Source of the DNA: Polychytrium aggregatum | Taxonomy: Eukaryota > Chytridiomycota > Chytridiomycetes > Polychytriales | Length of the DNA stretch: 64,000 bases | Direction of reading: 5' to 3' | Assembly: GCF_025602895.1 (NCBI RefSeq) | Contig: NW_026516241.1 | Span: 1 to 64,000 of the forward strand | Shown: one piece after another, positions 41,897-46,134 of the stretch | Layout of the letters: the number at the start of each line of letters is the position of its first letter | Position numbering within the stretch: position 1 is the stretch's first letter | Program-made: the position numbers and the translations under genes | Notes under the pieces: generated by a model | The model's input: only the letters and a program-made list of their open reading frames with translations | The model's database searches: none | What the model was told of the DNA's origin: nothing

Positions 41897-43796
41897 ATGA
41901 AGCTAACTTGGGCATCTGCGCTCGGCGCCCTGGTCTCGCTCGAGGCCGTGCTGTCTGCCGGCATTCCATCCGAGGTCGGCAACTGTCTGACCAAGCGCCA
42001 TTATTTCAACGAAACCAACCGCATTGCTGCCCCTGCCTCCAGCGGCCAGGACCGCCACAGCGTCCCGATCTATCTCGACTACACCAAGTACGACTGGACC
42101 ATCGACTATGCCAAAGAGCACGTCACCGTGAGTATCCGCTCCCTGTCGATCGACTCGTGTGTTCAGTTTGTGTACCGAGGCAGACTCTGCTGTGGTAGAT
42201 TCCGGGTGGCTTGCGGGCGCTGGCCCCACCAGGTCCATCAGCCAGAGAACGGCCCCTTGAGTCAGCCGACCTCGTCACAGCACACCACGGCCCAGCTCAG
42301 CAGGGCCAAGGCCAGGCATCTGGATTCGCGACTGTGTGTGTCTCTCGGCATGTCTCTCCTGATGGGTGTTTCCCGGTGCCAACACCAGCATTTCTAACTC
42401 GTGCACGATCCTGTCCTTGAATCCCGTCTGCGCTCCTGTTGCTACAACGGTCAGTTCGGCGCCAATGGCGGCGTCATGCTGAGTCTCATGCCTCCGGATA
42501 AGTCCAAGGGTATCTTGCAAGGAGGTGGGTGTCGCTGCTGATATGCAGTCCATCGGCAAGGAACGCACTGTGAGCCATTTGGGGTCCGACATCCGATGCC
42601 AGCCACAATGTCCTGATGTTGCCTGGCTCTGTCCCAACGCTCCGCGGGTCTTGCTGACAGCCGGCTCAAAGCTCTCGAGCACACGATACATGCGATATGG
42701 CAAGGTCACGGCCAGACTCAAGTCCATTTCGACAACCCCTGGTGTCGTTACCACATTCATCACCATGTCCGATATCGGCGATGAGCTCGATTTTGAAATT
42801 CTGGGACTCCGACCCACCGCCCCGGAGACCAACGTCTTCTACCATCAGTTCGAGCATCTGCCGCCCTGGAATCTACCCCTGGTCAACCAGCCCAGTGGCG
42901 TCCGCAGTGTGCCCATCTCGATCAGCGGAGATGGCGGCGATTACCACATCTATAGCATTGAGATCAAGGACACGGAGATTGAGTAAGTTGTACTAGGCGA
43001 GGCTTGACCCGTTTTGCCACGCAGATCAATCCAGGAGCCGCCTGCCGAAAGGAGCCCTGCATTCCCGCCACTGACCCATGCCGTCGCGGACGATTTGTCT
43101 CTGCAGCTTCTATGTCGACCAGCAACTGCGCCGCTCGTATGCGAAGAAGGACCAGGCCGATCCCACGGCCCCGGGTGGATTCTGGTTCCCGGACACCCCG
43201 GCCCTGGTCCAGGTCTCGGTCTGGGATGCCACCCAGGTCAGCCAGGGCGTTGCCGAGTGGGCCGGCAGCTCGATCAACTGGGGAATTGCCGATCCCCAGC
43301 ACGGCTTCTACGCAATCTATGAATACATTGACATCCAGGTAAGCGCGCAATGTTCTGTGGTGCAGAACCAGGGATGCATCGAGCGTTCGACCGGGCCAGT
43401 ATTGAGTCCACAACTGACAGTCGAGTTTGCACATCGTTTCGCGTCGCCCTTCTGTGTATGGTGATCGCTTCCCATCAGTGCTATGACGACAAGATGCAGC
43501 CCGTGGCCAAGTGGCCGCTCGACACACTCGACAATGATCCCCAGGGCGGACTTGGCGTCGACGTCCCCATGGATTCGGATGGGCAGGTGCAGGGCGTGCC
43601 CAGCAACATCGGAGTGGCCAACGCCAACATGACGGGCGACACCACGGTCAAGAAGTCCTTGGATTCGCCGTTCAAGGATCCGTCCAGGATCAACCGCGTG
43701 GCCTCGCCGGCTGGCCTTTCCATGACGTCGGTCTACGGGCCGCTGCTCGCGGTTGTCGCCGCGGCCGTCAGCAGCATTTTGCTCCAGCGGATCTGA
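41897..43796 (+). CDS. GH16-family GPI-anchored cell-wall glucanase/transglycosylase-like protein
   Basis: Exons 41897-42127, 42455-42524, 42661-42982, 43107-43338 and 43479-43796 join in phase to 390 residues. A signal peptide covers ~1-20 (LTWASALGALVSLEAVLSAG). The jelly-roll core includes KLSSTRYMRYGKVTARLKS and the catalytic signature GDELDFEILG, matching the family E-x-D-x-E with nucleophile and acid/base glutamates. FYVDQQLRRSY and the aromatic-rich WFPDTPALVQVSVWDA segment complete the cleft. The C-terminus has N-glycosylation sites and a hydrophobic tail (VYGPLLAVVAAAVSSILLQRI) typical of a GPI-attachment signal. Members such as CRH/UTR proteins crosslink chitin to glucan; whether this one hydrolyses or transfers cannot be judged. 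Consistent with the other wall proteins in the window. Confidence 0.88.
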
Positions 43797-44250
43797 TCGG
43801 GCTTTGGGCAACTCGCCCGAGCGTCTCGCTTGGTCTCTGTAGCTGAAGCTGCAGCCGTAGCCGCAACCAGAGACACCGCAGCAACTCACATTCAAAGTCT
43901 CTCTGTCAAAGCACCACCCGCCATATCCCATCGTCCAGGGTCCCATCATCCGTGATCGTGTCCACCACGGCCCCCCCCCAATCCCTCGTGGTCTCGGCTG
44001 CCATGGTTTAATCTTCCATGATTCCGTCTGCCATGGCCATGCGCCATCCTTCTATATCCTCGAATGAGCGCCCAGTAACGAGGCACATCCCGCTAATAGA
44101 GCTGAACTTGATTCACACCACACGCAGCCATCCATCCCGAGACAGAGCGAGTGCTCATAACGGCCAGCAGCGGGGCTCTGTGATTCGCTACCGGCGGGTG
44201 GAACCTGTACCCAGGCAGTGGTCACTATCAATATTGATATCGGCCCCTGA
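43797..44250. other. Intergenic region, nothing supported
   Basis: 3' flank of the GH16 gene and 3' flank of the Fanzor element. No gene recognised. Confidence 0.45.
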
Positions 44251-44345
44251 AAACGGGAAAGCCGCAATTGACAGCGTAGTATGTGATGTGCTTGCGCCAA
44301 GCAAAGCCATACGAAATACATCAAATCACTTTGGCCGCCTCCGAG
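44251..44345 (-). ncRNA. Candidate Fanzor guide-RNA scaffold / right end of element
   Basis: The ~80 bases after the Fanzor stop codon are conserved in the deleted relatives at 10.8, 51.6 and 58.7 kb, although they are non-coding there. Conserved blocks are the CGGAGGC-CCAAAGTGAT stretch at the stop, a short hairpin (44290-44302, GCTTG-GCG-CAAGC on the minus strand), CATCACATACTACGCTG, then an inverted-repeat-like end (44251-44261). Fanzor and TnpB guide RNAs are known to come from the 3' end of the gene and its flank. Transcription is not shown; the same conservation could simply reflect transposon-end recognition. Confidence 0.45.
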
Positions 44346-45348
44346 TGAACACCACCAGTCGTTCTCCGGTCTCCACAATCGACCTGCACACTGTGATCAT
44401 GTTGCGCGCCGCATTGACGTCGCGATTCCACACTGTCCGGCAGCTGGGATTCTTGCAGCTCCTGACAAAGTGGGAATTCGCAACACTGGGCGCATCGAGT
44501 CCTTCCAACCGAACTGGCTCCAGGCACTTGGAGCACACTTGCGAGGTGTTGAACTCGTTCGTCGAGGCCACCTTGACGCTTCCATGATGGTGAGTGGGAC
44601 GGCGTCGGTGGTGCTCGAATTGCTCAAAGTACCGAGCAAACCGCTGCCTCCGAGGGCTGGATGCATAGCCCTTGCCTTGTCGCCATGACGCATTGCCAAA
44701 GGCGATCACCACATCGGTCCGTATCGGGACGTGCTTCAGGACGGCCTTGCACATCCTGTCGACGGCCACTTGGCGCCTCTTGTGGCCTGTGAATCGATGG
44801 TGACGGGCCTTCTTGCCAAGGTGGAAGTCGAGCTGCACTCGCAGCTCCGGTCGCAGGACATGGGTGAGATGGACCTTGAAAGCCTCCGAGGACGACACCT
44901 TGGGCGAGGGAGTGGTCGACATCCAGGTCTCGATGCTGAGTCGATACTTCATGGTGTTGTGCCACTTGGTGTTGGACGTATGGCCACACATTTGCTGGTA
45001 GTGACCATTGGAGAATGAGACCACCTCGTCTTGGTGGCCCGGTGCTTGGATGACCGCCGTGAAGATGGAGCCGACTCCAGGATCGATGCCAATCCAAGTG
45101 GTGCGATCGGGGTCTGGGTTGCCGATGTGGGCCTGGATGCGCTGCTCGGCAGTCGGAGGAGGCTCGGAGGCCTCGGTGCGATCGGTTCGACGCACAAACT
45201 TGACGAGGCCGATGGTGCATCCAATGCCATCGGTGCTGATCTCGTAGTTGAACAGCTTCTTGTCCCTGACCCGCTCTTGGAAGTGGGAACTACGCAGCTT
45301 GAAGCAACTGCGCCAGAGACGATCCTGGTTGTTGACACCGTCCGTCAA
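44326..45348 (-). CDS. Fanzor (eukaryotic TnpB-like) RNA-guided nuclease, RuvC-containing C-terminal part
   Basis: 340 open codons. The frame holds a WED-like strand (FNYEISTDGIG, ~33-43) and RuvC-I WIGIDPGVGS with catalytic Asp (~89). VVIAFGNASW (~213-222) stands where RuvC-II lies but lacks the canonical Glu. NEFNTS carries the relocated Glu (~265) described for Fanzors. A zinc ribbon follows (CSKC ~272-275, CKNPSC ~298-303), then RuvC-III NRDVNAARNM with Asp (~310). So a full D-E-D set is present. The frame begins after a TGA at 45361 with no ATG before residue 120, and the N-terminal recognition lobe is not visible upstream. It is therefore either a 5'-truncated copy or a last exon. Acidic and zinc residues appear intact, so recent decay is limited to the 5' side. 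Confidence 0.82.
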   Translation of the reverse strand: MTDGVNNQDRLWRSCFKLRSSHFQERVRDKKLFNYEISTDGIGCTIGLVKFVRRTDRTEASEPPPTAEQRIQAHIGNPDPDRTTWIGIDPGVGSIFTAVIQAPGHQDEVVSFSNGHYQQMCGHTSNTKWHNTMKYRLSIETWMSTTPSPKVSSSEAFKVHLTHVLRPELRVQLDFHLGKKARHHRFTGHKRRQVAVDRMCKAVLKHVPIRTDVVIAFGNASWRQGKGYASSPRRQRFARYFEQFEHHRRRPTHHHGSVKVASTNEFNTSQVCSKCLEPVRLEGLDAPSVANSHFVRSCKNPSCRTVWNRDVNAARNMITVCRSIVETGERLVVFTRRRPK

Positions 45349-46134
45349 CCGACCGCGGATTCATTCCAACTTTTGCTGCACCTTTGGTCTACAGCGTGTA
45401 TTCATATTCGAGATGAGCAGCCGCGAGTGGCCTGAAGAGTTGATAGTGGAGTGCTTGTGCGCGGAGCCCGTCCCCGATTCGGCGACACACTGGCGGACAG
45501 AGCATTTCTGTGCGTGTTCTGGCTCGGGACTGCTCTGGTGGCGCGGCTGTGCCGTGACGCGGTTCAATGCATGTCGCGCAATTGATGCGCGTCACAGACA
45601 CAGTGGCCTCATGGGCCGCACAACACGGGGCTCTGGCGGCTCAGCTCACAAAAACGACAGCGGCGGGTCGCTTCGGGGATTGTTGCAACTGGGGCTGTCG
45701 TTGATGAAGTCGTTGTCGTTAATGAGGCAACAGCGCCGATGGTCATTACAGCATTCAAAGTTGTCGCAACCGAGTTATCGCAACCGAGTTATCACAACCG
45801 AGCTATCACAGCCGAGTTATCACAACCGAGTTACCATAGCCCACAGCAGCATATCCCAACCCGCGGCCACCGCCTGTTCCACAACGGCCAATCCGCCCAG
45901 GCACTTCTGCAACCGCACCCCGCCCGGTCCTGGATTTATTCGCATCCGCCGTCGCCGTCCTTCGGGTTTGTCTTCTCCCTGTCCGCCCCGTCTGCCCTGT
46001 CGATATACCCTGCTTCTCGCCTCCGTCGGGGCCAGTCTCCGCCAGCCGTCTGCAAGCACCACCGCTCCGACTCGCCTCGTCCATCGAAACCATCCTCGTC
46101 TCTATCGTCCGCATCCGCTTCTCCATCGCCCTCC
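45349..46134. other. Region upstream of Fanzor and of the first LURP-like gene
   Basis: Open minus-strand frames here (e.g. 45361-45567, same frame as Fanzor but ended by TGA) do not resemble a Fanzor N-terminus. Contains the 14-bp minisatellite at 45766-45840. Presumably includes the LURP-like gene promoter. Confidence 0.4.
45766..45840. repeat. 14-bp minisatellite (CAACCGAGTTATCA)n
   Basis: About five direct copies with single-base variants (CGCAACCGAGTTAT, ACAGCCGAGTTAT) about 300 bp upstream of the LURP-like gene start. Confidence 0.82.

Follow-up and report, generated by a model that had tools for sequence, protein, structure and literature searches.

Within the window, a stretch of 64,000 nucleotides, the segment 44223..45448 is very probably a copy of a non-autonomous, N-terminally truncated, chimeric Fanzor1 element. 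Fanzors are transposon-carried enzymes that cut DNA under RNA guidance. The frame in this element is a Fanzor1 gene fragment rather than a complete gene and, judged from its sequence, it is the RuvC half. This Fanzor and the family to which its body was traced (family A) are of a known kind, and the parent family is the larger and more informative result. The element has the following features:

44223..45448, minus strand: entire element (class B), a truncated and chimeric Fanzor copy of 1,226 bp, whose limits are those of its homology with the copies on C142 and C51, with 9-bp inverted ends CACTATCAA
44223..44231, plus strand: terminal inverted repeat CACTATCAA, read from the sequence
45440..45448, minus strand: terminal inverted repeat CACTATCAA, read from the sequence
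45342..45448, minus strand: left module, 107 bp, common to another Fanzor family (X), from genome matches
44276..45343, minus strand: family A (Tc1/mariner-Fanzor) segment, DNA identity up to 97%, from DNA alignment
44223..44275, minus strand: right end, the last 53 bp, differing from that of family A
44326..45348, minus strand: Fanzor1 gene, C-terminal half with RuvC and zinc ribbon, 340 codons and a stop, TTG being the sole start
45082..45084, minus strand: codon of D89 (RuvC-I, DPG motif), the motif being part of the Fanzor fingerprint described in PMC10711439
44554..44556, minus strand: codon of E265, the alternative RuvC-II glutamate, six residues ahead of the ribbon, aligned to SpuFz1 E541
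44419..44421, minus strand: codon of D310 (RuvC-III), aligned to SpuFz1 D606
44440..44535, minus strand: zinc ribbon, C272-x2-C275 ... C298-x4-C303, from sequence and Pfam

The Fanzor1 frame and its truncation

On the minus strand, 44326..45348 reads from a TTG, from which residues are numbered here. The frame is open over 344 codons, the open stretch starting a few codons before that TTG, and the plus-strand reading of the same interval is interrupted by stops. The initial annotation had taken this frame for a Fanzor nuclease with a relocated catalytic glutamate and an intact zinc ribbon. The frame is real and lies far beyond chance: residues 258-317 match the Pfam family Cas12f1-like_TNB (PF07282, E 2.1e-9, 37.8 bits with a cut-off of 26.3), at least 118 other places in the same genome match it at 93-96% amino-acid identity, and a profile built from four sequences (A1) finds SpuFz1 (8gkh) among solved structures (whole-sequence E 0.0011, matched stretch 0.014). 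The genomic count is a lower bound, 119 places including the window having been scored among 1,247 candidates in 64.7 Mb and 418 contigs. The A1 profile also reaches GtFz1 (9cer) at E 0.028. A full-length profile (A2) scores SpuFz1 less well than the C-terminal one does, at E 0.29, and a single-sequence search of the solved structures found neither SpuFz1 nor GtFz1. In IMG/VR, 38 pattern matches yielded no confirmed relative, and phage records gave no match.

The catalytic residues that had been placed near positions 89, 265 and 310 are read in the frame as D89 (in IGIDPGVGS), E265 (in NEFNTSQVC) and D310 (in WNRD). The DPG of RuvC-I (D89-P90-G91) is invariant across the A1 profile, and VVIAFGNASW is indeed without a glutamate. 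In the A1 alignment, E265 and D310 fall on chain residues 935 and 1000 of 8gkh, a spacing of 65; the catalytic residues of SpuFz1 given in PMC10432273 and PMC11423790, E541 and D606, are likewise 65 apart, so E265 corresponds to E541 and D310 to D606. SpuFz1 D383 lies outside this alignment, and D89 is therefore assigned by its DPG motif and by where it lies in the frame. Placed by sequence in this way, two by alignment and one by motif, the three residues may form one active site. The ribbon cysteines reported earlier are likewise found, C272/C275 and C298/C303 lying between RuvC-II and RuvC-III, with a second knuckle (Cx4C) like that of SpuFz1 (CTNPNC).

PMC10711439 describes the Fanzor fingerprint as DPG together with a glutamate placed six residues ahead of the ribbon. 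Bacterial TnpB shares the RuvC domain, the zinc ribbon and the association with transposons, but it has the canonical RuvC-II glutamate that the window frame lacks. The closest parallel is SpuFz1, from the element Spu-1 of Spizellomyces punctatus, whose Fanzor1 RuvC as described in PMC10432273 (PDB 8gkh) also uses the alternative glutamate E541 with D606; the similarity is remote, and the window copy is, unlike SpuFz1, a 340-codon fragment. The Pfam match, the fingerprint and the profile match to SpuFz1 agree with the identification as a Fanzor that had been proposed from the sequence. A single-sequence structure prediction of the window protein alone (one job) had a pLDDT of 30.

The initial annotation further judged the core functional on paper, which the genome does not support. 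An uninterrupted frame of 788-800 amino acids, starting from MPPKR, is present in at least 16 of the 27 class-A loci examined, which were picked for their similarity to the window frame; these are the longer relatives that the annotation had proposed to seek, and whose absence it had named as a refutation. Since the window frame has 340 codons and no early ATG, it lacks the N-terminal half, about 450 residues of the roughly 790 in intact relatives. Its earliest in-frame ATG is codon 120, past D89, so D89 would be lost from the product. In SpuFz1 the TAM is read by the REC and WED domains, according to PMC10432273, and by analogy these lobes, which bind RNA and TAM, would fall within the missing half of the window copy. 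The window copy most likely makes no working nuclease, and its full set of catalytic motifs does not imply an intact nuclease gene.

An alternative is that the truncated frame encodes a functional mini-Fanzor, or else a regulator that has been domesticated and vies with the full-length protein for RNA or DNA. The window copy does retain D89, E265 and D310 along with an undamaged ribbon, and the 1,017-nt frame is free of stops and indels in all seven aligned copies with class-B ends (L031-L036 and the longer L044), so loss of function in class B is unproved. The mean dN/dS to family A is 0.35 for the window and 0.23-0.45 for the other six, the mean for the C-terminal half within family A being 0.27 (29 distinct sequences). 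Low pairwise values can, however, stem from the history before truncation, and a further class-B copy outside the seven (L076) has a deletion and a shifted frame. The private changes of L031-L036 comprise 17 non-synonymous and 5 synonymous, versus 41 and 34 among family A singletons (30 sequences, L044 being counted with family A), which hints at relaxed constraint in the class-B copies, the difference from family A falling short of significance (p = 0.08). With no ATG ahead of codon 120 and the REC and WED domains probably gone as well, a mini-Fanzor or a regulator is very unlikely.

The chimeric element and its mobility

DNA alignment shows that the body of the element corresponds to the 3' half of the family A Fanzor gene. 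Its left module is of another origin, being matched at 40 or more places (40 scored of 105 candidates), with 33 of the 40 matches stopping at 45342. In the two of these 33 places that were read (L074 and L075), the left module is followed by a different Fanzor gene, which exceeds 800 codons, and the L075 protein matches PF07282 at 3.7e-9. The right end, searched alone, is found at six places including the window, to which longer alignments add C142 and C51.

An identical junction between the X and A segments recurs in the window, C142/C51, C367/C356, C52 and C375. These are five different flanking contexts, so the chimera has moved as a unit. C396 spans the junction by match only, and on C381 a related left end precedes a Fanzor piece that is longer. 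We propose that the chimera would have been born when repair of a broken element switched templates, and that a transposase acting in trans then mobilised it through its inverted ends. Around the window element no target-site duplication was recognised, and neither copy of CACTATCAA is bordered on its outer side by the TA of a Tc1/mariner duplication. Neither the X nor the B ends could be linked to a transposase.

Family X (L074 on C408 and L075 on C10) is another Fanzor family, with ends CACTAT. No transposase was recognised among the longest frames of L074 and L075, and the 20 class X left ends read have no clear TA.

Class B could also be a ghost-type element whose right end supplies a guide RNA used in trans by full-length Fanzors. 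Ghost loci that lack the protein gene and have RNA scaffolds compatible with SpuFz1 are described in PMC10432273, and deleted family A copies retain both ends. The class-B right end, however, departs from that of family A beyond 44276, and its predicted fold is no better than that of shuffled sequence (z -0.69, versus z -1.99 for the family A right end), which makes such a role unlikely.

The surroundings of the element offer three smaller observations. Fragments of a gene for a family 16 glycosyl hydrolase lie beside it in separate frames at 42525-43464 on the plus strand (PF00722, E 2.6e-14 and 7.6e-4); together with the Fanzor elements, these suggest a fungal host. The neighbouring 42600-43900 has only one full match in the assembly, and short direct repeats of the type GAGTTATCACAACC adjoin the element at about 45755-45845.

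Family A and its predicted target motif

Family A elements are about 3.6 kb long and contain a DDE transposase gene (DDE_3, E 4.3e-21) and a gene for a Fanzor of 790 amino acids. Their ends are imperfect terminal inverted repeats (TIRs), flanked by TA on the left in 45 of 46 and on the right in 26 of 28 distinct flanks; the transposase, the repeats and the TA on both sides place the family in Tc1/mariner. In these respects it resembles the Tc/mariner Fanzor1 elements PGv-1, PUl-1 and PUl-4, for which PMC3627910 describes a mariner-like transposase, a Fanzor1, TIRs and TA duplications. Fanzor-only relatives and chimeric Fanzor elements, as found here, are among those described there as well. 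PGv-1 is given in that report as single-copy, whereas family A is large enough for comparison of paired loci. High copy number is not new either, up to hundreds of Fanzor copies being reported in PMC10711439. Like family A, Spu-1 is an element with TIRs, conserved bases just outside its left end and Fanzor-less ghost copies; family A carries a transposase gene, whereas the account of Spu-1 in PMC10432273 gives none as found.

A 25-base stretch of the family A right end has 233 exact matches in the genome, duplicated loci included. Pairing of left and right ends succeeded for 52 of the 73 left ends listed: 45 pairs span about 3.1-3.7 kb and seven about 0.3-1.1 kb, the latter being deleted copies that keep both ends. 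The state of the two genes depends on how copies were chosen, both selections being biased towards the gene near their query (the left-end query covers the start of the transposase gene). Among 12 copies chosen by Fanzor similarity, the Fanzor is intact in ten and the 310-aa transposase frame open in one; among four chosen by the left end, each is found in two. Selection acting at the level of the copy, which the first set would suggest (10/12 versus 1/12), was dropped as an explanation because those copies had been chosen by their Fanzor and the left-end set gave 2/4 versus 2/4.

The base before the left TA is strongly biased. It is T in 43 of the 46 distinct left flanks (from 50 read; L069 is additional and without a canonical end), and 172 of 178 exact left ends have TTA, the other six having another base before TA (duplicated loci included). 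On the right, A follows TA in only 8 of 28 distinct flanks, so the preference is one-sided. Spu-1 has a conserved CA before its left inverted repeat, and SpuFz1 requires CATA, as reported in PMC10432273; by analogy, the left flanks suggest TTA as the predicted target-adjacent motif of family A, the outer conserved base differing between the two elements (TTA versus CATA). The T could, alternatively, belong to the element rather than to the target, since the 3 exceptions among 46 are within ordinary divergence and the joined flanks gave no empty site (11 joined flanks searched, none among 40 scored of 86 candidates). When 17 right flanks were tested for empty sites, one (C99) recurred in a repeat, which its left flank does not match. 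The family A right end is low in diversity, and this, with the TTA left ends, provides indirect signs that a guide RNA may be made there and that the left end may be preceded by a TAM.

Just past the family A copy on C99 (L029, L141-L144) lies a second Fanzor-like stretch, 69% in DNA.

Paired loci and proposed gene conversion

Many loci are present twice in the assembly with near-identical flanks, as duplicated or haplotype contigs, and copy counts are therefore inflated. Six pairs of loci with common flanks were compared. Over 1.37-1.47 kb of right flank, the two members of a pair show 0-3 base differences. The four family A pairs have 15, 70-71, 29 and 45 differences across some 2.6 kb of element; the two class-B pairs have 7 and 39 over a stretch that includes the left flank, those of C367/C356 lying almost wholly within the element. 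One family A pair (L015/L028) is inverted on the same contig, and some paired loci also differ by gaps. At 114 of the 160 differences in the family A pairs both variants occur in other copies, at 43 one does and at 3 neither. A four-gamete test on 16 intact genes fails for 8,758 of 15,931 pairs of variable sites, about half failing even within 100 bases. Finally, L116 (C246:75400-76020), the paired locus of the full-length L061, has a 3.3-kb internal deletion that leaves both ends in place, with a 7-base overlap at the junction.

Ectopic gene conversion, together with failed repair, would explain the mosaicism of the paired loci, and its trigger may be a transposase or a Fanzor. A literature search on Fanzor and gene conversion, judged by titles and abstract openings, gave no paper on the subject among those listed. 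Assembly error is the main rival, with reads of similar copies mixed in the consensus. The copies are only a few percent apart, which is hard for polishing, the assembly contains the duplicated loci described above, and part of the mosaicism could be assembly or polishing error in repeats. The gaps between paired loci and the 3.3-kb deletion, however, are hardly products of polishing, and as an account of the whole pattern an assembly artefact is possible, if on the unlikely side.

If gene conversion is the cause, a mariner-borne Fanzor might drive it by homing-like repair. By analogy with SpuFz1, the Fanzor of an intact family A element would likely bind RNA from the right end, with flanking DNA as the guide, recognise TTA at the empty site and cut there, after which repair would copy an element back. 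In the wider, homing-like scheme, the cut would follow departure of the transposase, the guide would come from the right flank of the Fanzor's own copy, and any of a large number of copies could be restored, so that duplicated loci would come to hold different mosaics and failed repairs would yield ghosts as well as chimeras, the window element among them. We put this wider scheme forward tentatively and regard it as rather doubtful. If it is true, a eukaryotic RNA-guided nuclease would here be remodelling a transposon family in nature, through gene conversion. To our knowledge, what role a Fanzor plays for its host transposon is an open question. Family A combines high copy number, some open transposase frames, a predicted TTA motif and paired loci that allow element to be compared with flank. 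Sequence data can thus be used to test the idea, proposed for TnpB and Fanzor, of retention or homing.

As a separate observation on the family A gene, diversity around codons 120-150 is very low, including at synonymous sites, and this segment lies between stretches of high diversity (in both the 16-copy and the 27-copy sets).
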